From a virus: a stretch of 37,815 nt of DNA. The notes under the pieces are model-generated. The model did not search any database. It saw nothing but the letters and a program-made list of their open reading frames with translations, and was not told where the DNA came from. Numbering within the stretch: position 1 is the stretch's first letter; each line of letters starts with the position of its first letter. The stretch spans positions 1 to 37,815 of IMG/VR virus record IMGVR_UViG_3300034355_000250; one strand, given 5' to 3'. The position numbers and the translations under genes are program-made. Below, in pieces: positions 4,374 to 37,815 of this stretch.

Positions 4374-4745
4374 ATGGCAGTCACACTTAACACTACCTTG
4401 CGCAATTCACGCGCGGATGCAATTACCACTTTTGCTGGTAACGGCGCTAAACTTAGAATTTATACTTCTGGCGCAGTTCAGCTAGTGGAATGCGTTTGCG
4501 GAACACCGTTTGCTGGCGCGGCTTCTAGCGGAGTGCTTACCTTAAGCGCAATTACAGCAGGTACAGCAGGCGCAACAGGGACAGCAGCTAACGCAAGTAT
4601 CTATAAATCAGACGGTACGACATTGGTCGTATCAGGATTAACCGTTGGCACGTCAGCTAGCAATATTAACTTATCAAGTACGTCTGTTACGACGGGTGAT
4701 AGTGTGGCTATTTCTTCTGCAACCATTACGGAAGGTAACGCATAA
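4374..4745 (+). CDS. Small structural protein of unknown function
   Basis: A 123-residue protein between portal and scaffold, rich in Ala, Thr, Ser and Gly with alternating beta-prone stretches (GVLTLSAITAGT, GLTVGTSASNINL). The ribosome site AGGAG lies ten bases before the ATG. Its stop overlaps the ATG of the next gene. The composition resembles phage head decoration or head-fibre proteins, and the context supports a virion role, but I see no defining motif. Confidence 0.75.
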   Translation: MAVTLNTTLRNSRADAITTFAGNGAKLRIYTSGAVQLVECVCGTPFAGAASSGVLTLSAITAGTAGATGTAANASIYKSDGTTLVVSGLTVGTSASNINLSSTSVTTGDSVAISSATITEGNA

Positions 4746-5527
4746 TGGCTTTATGGGACGCTGGAATATGGGACACCGCTAAATGGTCTACCATTGAAGC
4801 GACGGCGTCCATAACGCTTGATGACGTTACGTTTGCTAGTACAGGAAAGCTAACGCACAACGGCACATTAGCCGTTACGCTTGATGACGTTACGTTTGCT
4901 AGTACAGGAAAGCTAACGCACAACGGCACATTAGCCGTTACGCTTGATGACGTTACGTTTGCTGGCGCGGGGAAGCTAACGCACAACGGCACGTTAGCCG
5001 TTACGTTAGCGGACATTATCTTTACTGCTACAGGCAATGAAGTTCAAACGGGAATATTAGCAATTACGTTAGAAGATATTGCGTTTGCAGCCACAGGCGG
5101 CAAAGTTAACAGCGGTACTTTAGCGGTTACGTTAGACGATATTACATTTGTAGCTGCAGGGAATGAGGTTCAAACGGGCGTATTAGCGGTTACGTTAGAC
5201 GATATTACATTTGTAGCTACAGGCTCAGAAACACCACCGTTTTTAATTGACAATAGACGCGGCGGCTTAAAAGCCAAGAAAAAAGAATACAAAAACAACA
5301 GCGCCGACGTTAAAAAAGCGATTGAAGACGCCGTTGAAGCAGTTACTGGAGAGCCTAAACCAAAGGCTAAGGTTGCACCTAAAGTTGAAGAAAAGCCTGT
5401 TACTTTTGTTGAGGATTATGAAGCAATCCTCCGCATGGAAACTGAAAAAGCTGCACTAGAGCTTGCTATCGCGCAAATGCTTGAAGACGAGCGTGACGAT
5501 GAAGAAGCCATACTTTTACTATTATGA
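4745..5527 (+). CDS. Beta-repeat virion protein with seven 21-residue repeats
   Basis: A 260-residue protein. Residues about 24-170 are seven tandem 21-residue repeats of the pattern TLDDVTFASTGKLTHNGTLAV. The first two copies are identical in DNA and the later copies have diverged. The repeats look like short beta-strands joined by Gly/Asn turns, as in fibre shafts. After the repeats come a Lys-rich linker (GGLKAKKKEYKNN), a Pro/Lys stretch and an acidic helical tail ending in four Leu. It probably forms a fibre or spike on the head, or is a weakly conserved virion adhesin. No family is named with confidence. The start overlaps the preceding stop (TAATG). Confidence 0.75.
   Translation: MALWDAGIWDTAKWSTIEATASITLDDVTFASTGKLTHNGTLAVTLDDVTFASTGKLTHNGTLAVTLDDVTFAGAGKLTHNGTLAVTLADIIFTATGNEVQTGILAITLEDIAFAATGGKVNSGTLAVTLDDITFVAAGNEVQTGVLAVTLDDITFVATGSETPPFLIDNRRGGLKAKKKEYKNNSADVKKAIEDAVEAVTGEPKPKAKVAPKVEEKPVTFVEDYEAILRMETEKAALELAIAQMLEDERDDEEAILLLL
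4814..5254 (+). repeat. Seven 63-bp in-frame tandem repeats
   Basis: Units start at 4814, 4877, 4940, 5003, 5066, 5129 and 5192, each 63 bp. Units 1 and 2 are identical over all 63 bases and unit 3 differs at a few positions. Units 4 to 7 have diverged but keep the period. This is the signature of recent duplication at the 5' side of the array, so the shaft length is likely to vary between relatives. Confidence 0.95.
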
Positions 5528-10482: not shown

Positions 10483-10959
10483 ATGGCAAGACCAAAACTA
10501 GGCGTCACTTTTTGGGATAGAGTTAACGAAAACACTGTTATAGAAGCTAACGGATGTCATTTGTTTAACGGGCATAGAAACGATGACGGGTACGCAAGAA
10601 TTTCAAAAGATGGTAAGCTAGTCTTTGTACATCGAGAAATTTTTAAAAAACACAATCCTGAAGTCGAAATAACTGGCGTGGTAATGCACACTTGCGACAC
10701 GCCAAACTGTATAAATCCTAAGCATCTACGGCACGGGACACAAGCTGACAATGTTAAAGATATGAAAGTTAAAGGTAGAGGCAACTATTTAACGGGAAGT
10801 GCGCAATCACAAGCTAAGCTAACCGAAGCAGATGTTGTCATCATTAAGCAAAAATTGGAGATAGGTGTGACTAGCGCAAGATTAGCAAGAGATTTTAATG
10901 TTAGTGAAGCAGCAATTCAAAACATTAAAAAGGGGCGCCGCTGGACACACGTTAAATAG
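10483..10959 (+). CDS. HNH endonuclease with C-terminal HTH (probable free-standing homing endonuclease)
   Basis: A 158-residue HNH nuclease. The catalytic core runs from VFVHREIFKKHNPEVEITGVVMHTCDTPNCINPKHLRHGTQADN: the His of VMHTCD, the CxxxxC pair and the final NPKHL are the HNH signature, and NVKDM follows as usual. Residues about 105-155 form a helix-turn-helix (TSARLARDFNVSEAAIQNIKKGRRW) for target binding. It interrupts the tail module between adaptor and hub and has its own -10 element. These traits fit a mobile homing endonuclease that cuts relatives lacking it. Confidence 0.9.
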   Translation: MARPKLGVTFWDRVNENTVIEANGCHLFNGHRNDDGYARISKDGKLVFVHREIFKKHNPEVEITGVVMHTCDTPNCINPKHLRHGTQADNVKDMKVKGRGNYLTGSAQSQAKLTEADVVIIKQKLEIGVTSARLARDFNVSEAAIQNIKKGRRWTHVK

Positions 10960-22886: not shown

Positions 22887-23128
22887 TGGACGCCGATGCA
22901 ATCGCTAAATATATTAACCAGTATGGATTCCCAATTATCGCTGCTGGCGGTATGGGTTATATTGTCTATTTTGTATGGCTTTGGGCAACCACCGTCGTAA
23001 AACCTATCCTGCAAGAAGCCACAGACGCGCTAATTGAGCTAATCGACCAAGTACGGGTGCTAGATAATGACATGATAAGACTGACGCAAAAACTGACCAC
23101 TATTCTATTGCTACGGGAAAAGAAATGA
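22886..23128 (+). CDS. Small membrane protein, holin candidate 2 (paralogue)
   Basis: An 80-residue paralogue of the previous protein: QYGFPIIAAGGMGYIVYFVWLWATT parallels its membrane segment and the helical tail (LIELIDQVRVLDNDMIRLTQKL) parallels its IIKQLDKRVTAMSCDITKID. It overlaps the lysozyme gene as ATGA. Two such proteins could form one hetero-oligomeric holin or a holin and antiholin pair. Confidence 0.72.
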   Translation: MDADAIAKYINQYGFPIIAAGGMGYIVYFVWLWATTVVKPILQEATDALIELIDQVRVLDNDMIRLTQKLTTILLLREKK

Positions 23129-23580
23129 AGATAGGTGAAAAAGGGTTAGCCCTAATTAAAGAATTTGAAGGTTGTAAGCTGCAAAGCTATAAATGCCCAG
23201 CAGGTGTTTGGACGATTGGCATAGGCTCAACGCGCTACGCTGATGGCAGTCCAGTGAAAGCAAATCAAGCGCTGCCAGCAGAAGCGGCGGCTATGCAGCT
23301 ATTAGCGCATACGGTAGGCGCGTATGAACATACGGTTAACGCTATTGGTGTGCCGCTTACGCAAAACCAGTTTGACGCGCTTGTTAGCCTCTGCTATAAC
23401 ATTGGCAGCGGGAATTTAATTTCGTCAACGCTTGTTAAGATGTTAAAAGCAGGCAATGATAAAGCAGAAGTAGCAAAGCAGTTTTTAAGATGGAACAAGG
23501 CCGCCGGTAAAGAATTAGCCGGCTTAACGCGACGCAGAAATGCCGAAGCAGAATTATTTTTAGGACACGATGATGAATAA
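23125..23580 (+). CDS. Endolysin, GH24 lysozyme
   Basis: A 151-residue T4-lysozyme-type muramidase. The catalytic signature is Glu (in KEFEGCK), eight residues, Cys (in YKCP), five residues, Thr (in WTIG), the E-C-T variant of this family. Later motifs NQFDALVSLCYNIGSG and GLTRRRNAEAELFL are also standard. No signal peptide or signal-anchor segment is present, so it depends on a holin to reach the wall. It cleaves the MurNAc-GlcNAc bond of peptidoglycan. Confidence 0.95.
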   Translation: MKIGEKGLALIKEFEGCKLQSYKCPAGVWTIGIGSTRYADGSPVKANQALPAEAAAMQLLAHTVGAYEHTVNAIGVPLTQNQFDALVSLCYNIGSGNLISSTLVKMLKAGNDKAEVAKQFLRWNKAAGKELAGLTRRRNAEAELFLGHDDE

Positions 23581-35035: not shown

Positions 35036-35069
35036 ATTTTCAAGAATTCAGAAAAAATTTTGGCATTTG

Positions 35070-35107
35070 GTTTCGTGGCAAAAATTTGCAAATCGTTTCG
35101 TGGCAAA
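35070..35107 (+). repeat. Two 13-bp direct repeats GTTTCGTGGCAAA
   Basis: GTTTCGTGGCAAA at 35070-35082 and 35095-35107, 25 bases apart, each followed by an A/T run. TTGCAAATCG between them (35086-35095) also occurs in the hairpin loop region of the RNA locus (34843-34852). They are candidate protein-binding repeats. Confidence 0.75.
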
Positions 35108-35192
35108 TTTTTGACGTTCATTAGATTTGAAATCCTGTACATCCCCAAATTTGAAAATCCGACCTTATCAAATAACCATCAAATAAGATTTT

Positions 35193-35346: not shown

Positions 35347-35371
35347 AATAAAAAAGGCCCGTTAAGGCCTT
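35347..35371 (-). terminator. Second intrinsic terminator of the leftward operon
   Basis: Read leftward: AAGGCC, loop TTAACG, GGCCTT, then a run of T (the A-run at 35348-35353 on the plus strand). It backs up the terminator at 35389-35412. Confidence 0.75.
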
Positions 35372-35388: not shown

Positions 35389-35412
35389 TAAAAAAAGCGG
35401 ACTTTCGTCCGC
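35389..35412 (-). terminator. Intrinsic terminator of the anti-defence operon
   Basis: Read leftward: GCGGAC, GAAA tetraloop, GTCCGC and a run of seven to eight T. It lies nine bases after the stop of the 20-residue peptide gene. Strong stem, stable loop and T-run make the call firm. Confidence 0.9.
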
Positions 35413-35420
35413 CTTCTTGT

Positions 35421-35483
35421 TTAGTTTTCTAGTAGTATCGCCAGGACAGCGAATTTAACTAGAATTAGGAATATTATTATCAT
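35421..35483 (-). CDS. 20-residue hydrophobic membrane peptide
   Basis: ATG 35483 overlaps the stop of the 77-residue gene (ATGA) and the frame ends at TAA 35421-35423, just before a strong terminator. The peptide is almost all Ile, Leu, Phe and Val with one Lys (IIIFLILVKFAVLAILL), a single membrane helix. Place, coupling and terminator support a real gene. It resembles small toxic or regulatory membrane peptides only in form. Confidence 0.55.
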   Translation of the reverse strand: MIIIFLILVKFAVLAILLEN

Positions 35484-35713
35484 CTTTCAACCCCAAAAAA
35501 TTGAAGTATTGAAAATTGTATATCTCTAATGTCGTTTAAATCGTCGCTGTTTAAACCAAAATCCTCACAAAACAGCGTTTCGTTTAAATCGTCATAATAC
35601 CACTCACAAGTTAAACAATTTTCTAACTGTAAACGTAATTTTAAAGCAACGTTTACGCCGTAAAGATTTTCTATTTTATTAATGGCGTTTTTAATGTAGT
35701 CAATTGTAATCAT
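35480..35713 (-). CDS. Small acidic protein, anti-defence operon (77 aa)
   Basis: A 77-residue acidic protein (about a quarter Asp/Glu in the C-terminal half: WYYDDLNETLFCEDFGLNSDDLNDIRDI). ATG 35713 overlaps the preceding stop (TAATG) with AAGGTG upstream. High acidity beside ArdA raises the possibility of another DNA mimic, but this is inference. Confidence 0.7.
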   Translation of the reverse strand: MITIDYIKNAINKIENLYGVNVALKLRLQLENCLTCEWYYDDLNETLFCEDFGLNSDDLNDIRDIQFSILQFFGVER

Positions 35714-35949
35714 TATTGCACCTTTAGTATGTTTTGCTTATACGCGCGAATATAACCTTTAAGTCTATCCATGTTTTTACTATAAACAATTAAGCCACAC
35801 GGCAAAACGCTCGATAAGATAGTGACGCCGTTATAGTTTGCGCCGTTGATATATTCGCCCCTATAGAATACCGACCATGAACAACTAATAATATTGGTTG
35901 AGCTGCGCCGGTATGCTAAGGTGTTTTGATAGCGTTTTGATATTTTCAT
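35713..35949 (-). CDS. Small basic protein, anti-defence operon (78 aa)
   Basis: A 78-residue protein with a basic C-terminus (VYSKNMDRLKGYIRAYKQNILKVQ) and a Ser/Tyr-rich front (SSTNIISCSWSVFYRGEYINGANYNGVTIL). Pattern suggests a small alpha/beta fold. Function not recognised; it sits in a run of unknown genes behind ArdA. Confidence 0.68.
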   Translation of the reverse strand: MKISKRYQNTLAYRRSSTNIISCSWSVFYRGEYINGANYNGVTILSSVLPCGLIVYSKNMDRLKGYIRAYKQNILKVQ

Positions 35950-35953
35950 TTTA

Positions 35954-36172
35954 TTAATTCCAGGTATCGACGTAAATTTTTACGCCTTTAATAATGATAT
36001 AGCACAACGCTACATTAGAATAGCAAGTCGCGTAAACGCGATATTCTTTGTTACCTACCAGTGCTTTTCTACCAGTGTTTAGCTTTTTACCGTAACCGGT
36101 CGCCGTTTGCATTAACCCGCGCGTGTGATACCACATAGGGGCGTCAATAAATTCTAGGTATATAGTCGTCAT
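35954..36172 (-). CDS. Small protein, anti-defence operon (72 aa)
   Basis: A 72-residue protein (TIYLEFIDAPMWYHTRGLMQTATGYGKKLNTGRKALVGNKEYRVYATCYSN). The TGYGKKLNTGRK phrase followed by a YRVYATCYSN strand and an IIIKGVKIYV strand suggests a compact beta fold of unknown function. ATG overlaps the preceding stop (TAATG). Confidence 0.68.
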   Translation of the reverse strand: MTTIYLEFIDAPMWYHTRGLMQTATGYGKKLNTGRKALVGNKEYRVYATCYSNVALCYIIIKGVKIYVDTWN

Positions 36173-36438
36173 TAGTTGTCTACCCCATACTCAATAGCAA
36201 ACAAGGGCCGGCGCGTAGAACGTTCTATAATAACGATATTATATTGGTCGTCATCAATTGCGCATTTACCCGCGCTTTTATCAGTTAAAAAACCGTTATC
36301 ACGAAAATATTTTAGTAGTTTTCGCGCGTTCCAGTGTATTGCATCGGCGTCAATATCTCCCGCGTCATACCACGCGTTCCAAGTGTAACCGTCGCATTCG
36401 CGCCACGCGTCAATTGATAAAACTCTATATGTTTTCAT
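36172..36438 (-). CDS. Small protein after ArdA (88 aa)
   Basis: An 88-residue protein with many aromatic and acidic residues (SIDAWRECDGYTWNAWYDAGDID, then ARKLLKYFRDNGFLTDKSAGKCAIDDDQYNIVIIE). AAAGG precedes ATG 36438. The pattern is typical of small accessory proteins found with antirestriction genes on mobile elements, but I cannot name a family. Confidence 0.7.
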   Translation of the reverse strand: MKTYRVLSIDAWRECDGYTWNAWYDAGDIDADAIHWNARKLLKYFRDNGFLTDKSAGKCAIDDDQYNIVIIERSTRRPLFAIEYGVDN

Positions 36439-36519
36439 TGTTTAGCCTTTATTTTTATTAGGTGCAAAATTACACCGCATAACGCGCGACGTTAACCACG
36501 CGTTATACGTTAAAATCTT
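36439..36519. other. Gap after ArdA with inverted repeats
   Basis: ATAACGCG (36479-36486) and CGCGTTAT (36499-36506) form an 8-bp inverted repeat with a 12-base loop. GGTGCAAAATTACACC next to it is a second, imperfect one. They lie between ArdA and the following leftward gene and may be RNA hairpins that set relative expression, or a protein-binding site. Confidence 0.45.
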
Positions 36520-37002
36520 TTACCAGTTATTAGAAAAATAATGGCCTTTTGATTCTACATAGTCAAACATTAACGTTTTAGCGGCAACTTGCCAGTCAAC
36601 ATGGCAAAATGGCCATTGTTCACTAATGTCATTTAAGTATCCGCACTGGTCGGCCATATCGTAGGCAAAATCACTATCACTATCATATTGACCTTGATAC
36701 GCGTCGATAATTGAATCGAGTGGTATCTCACAATCAAGCCCCGCATCAATGACGTACTTGTTATCAGATAAACACGCGTTAACGTAATAATAGACTTCTT
36801 GCATATCGATACATTCATGGCAATAGTTTTTGTGTATGTCATCAAAATCCTGAAACATCAATTCAGGGTCAATTTCATCATTGTGCAATTCCTTGCACGC
36901 GTCGATAAATTGTTCCGCGTCGATATAATCGGTTAATGTTAGCCACGCGCCGGCGATTGACCCGTTGCTATATTTCGCATACGTTCCAACGTAAATTTTC
37001 AT
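36520..37002 (-). CDS. ardA: ArdA-family antirestriction protein
   Basis: A 160-residue, very acidic protein beginning KIYVGTYAKYSNGSIAGAWLTLTDY, then FIDACKELHNDEIDPELMFQDFDDI. This is the classic ArdA opening (IYVxTYxxYxxG, GxWxxL, and the ELHxDExDPELMFQD block). ArdA proteins are elongated DNA mimics that bind and block type I restriction enzymes when foreign DNA enters. Length matches the family. It is read leftward from a promoter near 37250 and leads a run of unknown small genes. Confidence 0.92.
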   Translation of the reverse strand: MKIYVGTYAKYSNGSIAGAWLTLTDYIDAEQFIDACKELHNDEIDPELMFQDFDDIHKNYCHECIDMQEVYYYVNACLSDNKYVIDAGLDCEIPLDSIIDAYQGQYDSDSDFAYDMADQCGYLNDISEQWPFCHVDWQVAAKTLMFDYVESKGHYFSNNW

Positions 37003-37033
37003 GTTATTGCTCTCTCTCTATTGTTAATTGGTA

Positions 37034-37056
37034 GCGCGGTCATCTCGCGACCGCGC
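37034..37056 (-). other. GC-rich hairpin between the membrane gene and ArdA
   Basis: GCGCGGTC (37034-37041), loop ATCTCGC, GACCGCGC (37049-37056), an 8-bp all-strong stem in an AT-rich region. No T-run follows leftward, so it may be an RNA processing or stability element that separates the membrane gene from ardA rather than a terminator. Confidence 0.6.
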
Positions 37057-37066
37057 GGGTTAAATG

Positions 37067-37195
37067 TTATTTGCTTAATGTAATACCTGATTGAGTGAAG
37101 TTAACGCGGTATTGCATCGCGTTGGATAAAACAATTGTAATTAACGCGACAATGGCAATTGACGCGAGTAAAGATAAAGATAATGTTTTAATCAT
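37067..37195 (-). CDS. Small membrane protein, first gene of the anti-defence operon (42 aa)
   Basis: A 42-residue protein with one long hydrophobic segment (LSLSLLASIAIVALITIVLS) and a short tail (NAMQYRVNFTQSGITLSK). AGGATTG lies nine bases before ATG 37195, and a strong promoter lies upstream, so it is the first gene read. It is either membrane-anchored or has a signal sequence. Confidence 0.7.
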   Translation of the reverse strand: MIKTLSLSLLASIAIVALITIVLSNAMQYRVNFTQSGITLSK

Positions 37196-37220: not shown

Positions 37221-37240
37221 AGTCGTCGGAATTGACGACT
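37221..37240. promoter_or_regulatory. Operator-like inverted repeat in the leader
   Basis: AGTCGTC (37221-37227), spacer GGAATT, GACGACT (37234-37240), a perfect 7-bp inverted repeat placed over the expected first transcribed bases of the leftward operon. It could be a repressor site or a 5'-end hairpin. Confidence 0.55.
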
Positions 37241-37248
37241 TGCTAAAC

Positions 37249-37276
37249 ATTATAAAGCAATAAAATTTAAATGCAA
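37249..37276 (-). promoter_or_regulatory. Promoter of the anti-defence operon
   Basis: Read leftward: TTGCAT (37271-37276), 16 bases, TATAAT (37249-37254), a consensus -10 and four-of-six -35. It is the strongest-looking promoter in the window and lies about 50 bases before the first gene, as expected for genes needed on entry. Confidence 0.8.
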
Positions 37277-37602: not shown

Positions 37603-37815
37603 ACTATCAGGGCAGGCAGCAGGGCAGGCAGCAGGGCAGGCAGCAGGGCAGACAGCAGGGCAGACAGCAGGGCAGACAGCAGGGCAGACAGCAGGGCAGA
37701 CAGCAGGGCAGACAGCAGGGCAGACAGCAGGGCAGACAGCAGGGCAGACAGCAGGGCAGACAGCAGGGCAGACAGCAGGGCAGACAGCAGGGCAGACAGC
37801 AGGGCAGACAGCAGG
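37563..37815 (+). CDS. N-terminal part of the (Gly-Arg-Gln-Gln)n repeat protein, open at the right contig end
   Basis: The frame after TAG at 37551-37553 is open to the end of the window. The only start codon before the array is TTG 37563, with no strong ribosome site. It would give about 16 residues ([15 protein letters not shown]) and then GRQQ units. It is in the same translation frame of the repeat as the left-end piece. The N-terminal codons coincide with two iterons, so the start is doubtful; the coding case is stronger for the left-end tail. Confidence 0.35.
37609..37815. repeat. 12-bp tandem repeat array, right contig end
   Basis: About 17 copies. The first three read AGGGCAGGCAGC and the rest AGGGCAGACAGC, a single-base change that then spread through the array. 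Directly joining the contig ends drops two bases from the 12-bp register, as expected when an assembler breaks inside a repeat. The AGGCAG of the first copies equals the core of the iterons next to it. Confidence 0.97.

Follow-up and report, generated by a model that had tools for sequence, protein, structure and literature searches.

A leftward cluster of seven genes at positions 37195-35421 of the IMG/VR virus record IMGVR_UViG_3300034355_000250, the whole 37,815 nt of which (the window) was analysed, is probably an early host-takeover and anti-restriction operon of a freshwater podovirus-like phage, built as a fixed frame that holds exchangeable cassettes and ends in a constant membrane micropeptide. 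Early expression is suggested by the type of promoter and, by analogy, by the position in T7-like phages of homologues of one of the small genes (C72, described below). As an early host-interaction operon that contains a single known anti-restriction gene it is of an ordinary kind, but its modular form is unusually clear and the invariant micropeptide at its end was unexpected.

A fixed frame around seven genes

The seven ORFs were confirmed on the minus strand and encode, in 5′ to 3′ order, proteins of 42, 160, 88, 72, 78, 77 and 20 residues, with several ORFs overlapping or nearly abutting. Every ORF named in the first-pass annotation of this DNA, which had described a leftward unit comprising ardA, small genes and a terminal 20-residue peptide gene, is present on this strand, and the placing of ardA within a single transcription unit is supported. 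The ORFs are real genes, since most differences between relatives from independent contigs are synonymous: pN/pS is 0.30 for ArdA, 0.105 for the 88-residue protein (B88), 0.17 for the 72-residue protein (C72) and 0.20 for the 77-residue protein (E77), with a value of 0.10 for the 78-residue protein (D78) that comes from one pair only. Purifying selection is seen in all of the operon genes that could be tested. The first gene (37067..37195, minus strand) encodes a 42-residue membrane peptide that corresponds to a protein of 96-98 residues in relatives (L010, L047 and L064) but lacks its N-terminal half, a shortening that the earlier account did not note.

The operon had been described as lying away from all other modules, which is only partly right, as it sits between the small-terminase end and a convergent primase/polymerase module. 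The same locus is found in about 50 IMG/VR contigs, between the small terminase gene and the gene for a convergent VapE-type primase, with a mosaic content that the first-pass annotation did not record.

A sigma-70-type promoter, TTGCAT-N16-TATAAT (37249..37276, minus strand), precedes the first gene, and near-identical sequence is found by blastn at the equivalent place in about 33 related contigs. The promoter had been called strong; its match to the consensus is modest and was missed by an automatic scan. Beginning 8-9 nt past the -10 box, close to where the mRNA is presumed to start, is a stem-loop (AGTCGTC/GACGACT; 37221..37240, minus strand) not mentioned previously, with a conserved helix of eight pairs in which 95% of cells are paired and three pairs show two-sided changes (fold z -2.85). 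We infer that this is an RNA element, a 5′ stabilising stem-loop. The double terminators proposed at the other end are borne out: both intrinsic terminators, GCGGAC GAAA GTCCGC (35397..35412, minus strand) and AAGGCCT TAAC GGGCCTT (35354..35371, minus strand), are followed by a T run, and the pair is conserved in about 38 relatives with compensatory changes in both stems. Host RNA polymerase would transcribe the operon from the conserved promoter, giving an mRNA that would begin with the hairpin and stop at the two terminators, ahead of the convergent replication module.

Imperfect 25-bp direct repeats occur just past the terminators, at 35055-35113. The ORF overlapping them falls into a cluster with ORFs of relatives (about 24 calls); the stretch may represent iterons or a regulatory site and not a gene. 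Repeats are also found elsewhere in the window. A single tandem array of a 12-bp unit (AGACAGCAGGGC) takes in both ends of the record, with 12.6 copies at 1-151 and 17.3 at 37608-37815, so the record is probably circular or was cut inside the array, and 63-bp (21-codon) tandem repeats, several of them diverged copies, occupy 4814-5224 inside the ORF at 4745-5527. A 158-residue ORF at 10483-10959, between two structural genes, appears by eye to resemble an HNH homing endonuclease.

ArdA and its neighbours

The second gene (36520..37002, minus strand) encodes a 160-residue protein that is, judged by its sequence, a full-length member of the ArdA family, as the first-pass annotation had it. The protein matches Pfam PF07275 over residues 3-147 (E 6.1e-19; 69.6 bits against a cut-off of 27) and phrog_2059 (E 7e-19), and its acidity is like that of a DNA mimic (net charge -24, pI 4.05; averaging -14 per 100 residues in 16 relatives). 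A PDB sequence search with ArdA at 0.01 gave no match, nor did an NCBIfam search at E 0.05 for any of the operon products, ArdA included. Like the ArdA proteins of conjugative plasmids and transposons, it is full-length and strongly acidic, and it is 38% identical, across 98% of its length, to ArdA proteins of plasmids, mostly conjugative ones; unlike them it is phage-borne and encoded in an exchangeable slot, which in about two thirds of relatives is occupied by an unrelated gene instead. An antirestriction role appears well founded by family, and during infection ArdA would, as a DNA mimic, occupy type I restriction enzymes. Two observations favour an anti-restriction gene at this locus: the distant relative MW202483.1 has an annotated 5-cytosine DNA methyltransferase in the equivalent position, flanked by terminase and VapE, and the C72 family provides Ghunavirus Psa17, a T7-like phage, with its first annotated early gene.

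It had been proposed that the genes grouped with ArdA are, as is often the case, other inhibitors of host defence. Taken furthest, this would make the operon a dedicated anti-defence island in which each small gene blocks a different host defence and E77 is a second DNA mimic, a reading that we consider unlikely. Beside the certain family membership of ArdA and the methyltransferase of MW202483.1, it draws on the rapid swapping of small genes that share one promoter, which is typical of counter-defence loci, and on the early position of C72 homologues, first among the annotated genes in Psa17 and second in Kompost-2 (where a separate 46-aa ORF at 86-226 lies ahead). In Pseudomonas phage PMBT23, moreover, the gene directly downstream of the C72 homologue is itself homologous to an accessory gene of this locus. 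Other observations argue the other way.

E77 (35480..35713, minus strand; 17 related loci) is acidic, with a net charge of -8 over 77 residues, all of it in the C-terminal half (the N-terminal half is +1), but 12% of a set of 263 small phage ORFs match it in acidity. Its charge density is less than half that of Ocr, as judged against what we take to be the Ocr sequence, and the extreme negative charge of an sArdA or DNA mimic is absent. A comparison of E77 with ArdA in hhalign returned a probability of 0.1%, the E77 profile being shallow (Neff 1.2). The idea was worth testing because half-size ArdA proteins exist (PMC12548430); as a shortened ArdA, E77 showed no profile relation. With ordinary acidity and no detectable relation to ArdA, the sequence of E77 does not support its identification as a second DNA mimic.

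Of the other small proteins, C72 (35954..36172, minus strand) and D78 (35713..35949, minus strand; +10; five related loci at 56-91% identity) are basic, which also speaks against a set of defence inhibitors of the kind proposed. C72 belongs to phrog_3436 (E 1.1e-15), a family found in 299 phage records, both by profile and by its invariant residues (TA[ST]GYGxK ... R.Y ... SN); this was the only PHROGs match among the products other than ArdA, none of which had a significant match in Pfam. B88 (36172..36438, minus strand) has relatives at 40 loci and carries an invariant LSIDAWR motif. The C72 and B88 families are both widespread in phages. In BFVD the only matches to B88 were members of its family from Xylella phage Salvo and Achromobacter phiAxp-2. 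A scan of genome contigs for C72 found one MAG contig. The distant homologues of C72 and B88 are accompanied mostly by unknown small phage genes, and among 216 such neighbours there was no ArdA and no other named anti-defence Pfam family.

Structure prediction, which had been put forward as a check on the anti-defence proposal, was run on C72 and B88 and gave confident AlphaFold2 models, all-beta with five strands for C72 (pLDDT 88) and strand-strand-helix-three strands for B88 (pLDDT 93), but no useful match to a solved fold. The best Foldseek hits in the PDB had E values of 3.5 (C72) and 0.18 (B88) and the best VIA-align Z scores were 2.1 and 3.1, respectively, none of them usable; this does not prove that either fold is new. 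By Pfam and PHROGs, ArdA is the only recognisable anti-defence member of the operon. As a cluster with anti-restriction genes that would enter the cell early, the operon resembles the anti-defence islands of plasmid leading regions (PMC11541004); it differs from them in having one recognisable family only, in including a clamp gene in some relatives and in carrying C72, of which the plasmid collection searched held no example.

Mutually exclusive cassettes

Comparison of the related loci resolves the mosaic into three slots. Slot 1 holds small variable genes, including a membrane protein and a 66-mer. Slot 2 is filled either by ArdA (15 operons) or by an unrelated 92-residue protein (31 operons), usually followed by a 52-residue partner, and never by both. 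Slot 3 contains either a DnaN-type sliding clamp (20 of 50 operons) or a set built on C72 (27 operons), again never both. The clamp (for example L052:1477-2439 and L002:1123-2085) was identified by its matches to phrog_947 (5e-21) and to the Pfam beta-clamp central domain (4e-11). In one contig the slots are filled instead by a 238-residue cysteine-containing protein (L191:2147-2860).

To guard against bias, exclusion was recounted on 48 contigs found only via the 20-residue peptide: ArdA and the 92-residue protein co-occur in none of the 48 (Fisher p ~1e-8), and neither do DnaN and C72 (Fisher p ~1e-10). ArdA and DnaN assort freely. Searches of whole records gave the same picture, with C72 present and DnaN nowhere in the window and in G001, and the reverse in G002 and G003. 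On a tree of the primase the labels change at least nine times for ArdA and the 92-residue protein and at least 11 times for DnaN and C72, the latter being about as many changes as for shuffled labels. Phylogenetically independent pairs with opposite contents number five of five for ArdA and the 92-residue protein and five to six of six for DnaN and C72. Well-supported branches yield few such pairs (five to six), and with the poor resolution of the primase tree the swap count can be taken only as approximate; the finding of zero co-occurrence holds whatever the tree. Simple replacement of one allele by another, with no function in common, could account for the mutual exclusion.

Where ArdA is replaced, the 92-residue protein, usually with its 52-residue partner, may do a comparable anti-restriction job. 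Phages T7 and T3 offer a precedent: their anti-restriction genes, ocr and the SAMase gene respectively, are different but occupy the same map position (PMC12707154). The likeness to the gene 0.3 region of these phages, and to the early regions of Autographiviridae more generally, lies in this use of one early locus for different anti-restriction genes and, for the latter, in the C72 homologue that comes first among the annotated early genes of Psa17. The present locus differs in having slots with ArdA or the 92/52 pair, a facultative clamp and a fixed 20-residue peptide, and no phage RNA polymerase gene was seen in this phage.

Slot 3 bears on the operon as a whole. Because a DnaN clamp fills it in relatives, the operon is not purely anti-defence, and because the clamp sits among the operon genes in so many of them, association with ArdA is not specific. 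Together with the basic character of C72 and D78 and the 216 neighbours free of known anti-defence families, this counts against the proposal that the neighbours of ArdA are defence inhibitors, which is founded on association. The clamp also raises a further alternative, which we regard as very unlikely, that the operon is linked to replication: DnaN, or the C72 set by recruiting the host clamp, would give processivity to the family-A polymerase, with ArdA a passenger. DnaN and C72 are indeed strictly exclusive even though adjacency would be possible, as shown by L052, where DnaN is followed by B88, and the operon abuts the primase/polymerase module. T7-like phages, however, use other processivity factors, and it is as early genes of T7-like phages that C72 homologues are found; the distant phage L129, moreover, has a DnaN-like gene near C72. 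We favour instead an early host-takeover operon in which slot 3 takes either the clamp or small proteins built on C72.

The constant 20-residue peptide

The last gene (35421..35483, minus strand) encodes the 20-residue peptide MIIIFLILVKFAVLAILLEN and is the only constant gene among the related operons, being the last gene in all 35 relatives that cover the 3′ end, whatever gene precedes it. The peptide has a single hydrophobic stretch with a central lysine (GRAVY 2.5) and is, from its composition, a membrane-type micropeptide. Lys10, Phe5, Phe11 and Glu19 do not vary in the 35 relatives. Scanning all viral contigs with a sequence pattern identified 48 that carry the peptide, at this locus in those examined; as the pattern itself fixes some residues, these contigs are no guide to residue invariance. 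In all relatives but one the start codon lies in an ATGA context, and the peptide is therefore probably translationally coupled.

Could the conserved element be the nucleotide sequence beside the terminators rather than a protein? The stretch lies directly 5′ of the terminators, and in an Rfam search for an antisense RNA, in which no family reached its gathering score, weak sub-threshold matches overlap it. Selection has nevertheless kept the protein: 27 DNA versions in a first set gave a pN/pS of 0.10, and a wider count found 40 DNA versions against 21 nearly identical proteins. With the ATGA start context also retained after different upstream genes, a purely nucleotide element is extremely improbable.

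As a protein, the peptide might be a toxic hydrophobic peptide of the Ibs or type I toxin kind that damages the host membrane. Its size and hydrophobicity are like those of such toxins, and no other gene separates it from the terminators, but the resemblance is one of character only, and the antisense RNA sought in Rfam was not found. A separate lysis set also seems to be present, read from a lysozyme-like ORF at 23125-23580 with small ORFs ahead of it, and we judge the toxin reading to be distinctly unlikely. A lysine in the middle of a hydrophobic stretch suggests a partner protein in the membrane, and the peptide, present in every case, probably acts on a host inner-membrane protein. Gp11 of phiNM1, a 53-aa protein that acts on the host (PMC11237401), is likewise a small membrane protein from an early gene set; the present peptide has only 20 residues, with one hydrophobic stretch and its central lysine, and no relation between the two is expected.

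It is conceivable, if somewhat doubtful, that both novelties hold together, the 92-residue protein (with its 52-residue partner) being a new, unrelated anti-restriction system and the 20-residue peptide representing a new class of phage micropeptide with a host inner-membrane target in every infection. What was a loose guess about the neighbours of ArdA has in any case become a set of sharp tests. A gene that substitutes for ArdA at least nine times on the primase tree and never co-occurs with it is a strong candidate for a new anti-restriction system, and the strict exclusion between DnaN and C72 provides a first clue to the role of the C72 family. Alone constant in a fast-changing operon, the 20-residue peptide, which would escape standard gene calling, is a candidate for a core factor in host takeover by these phages.
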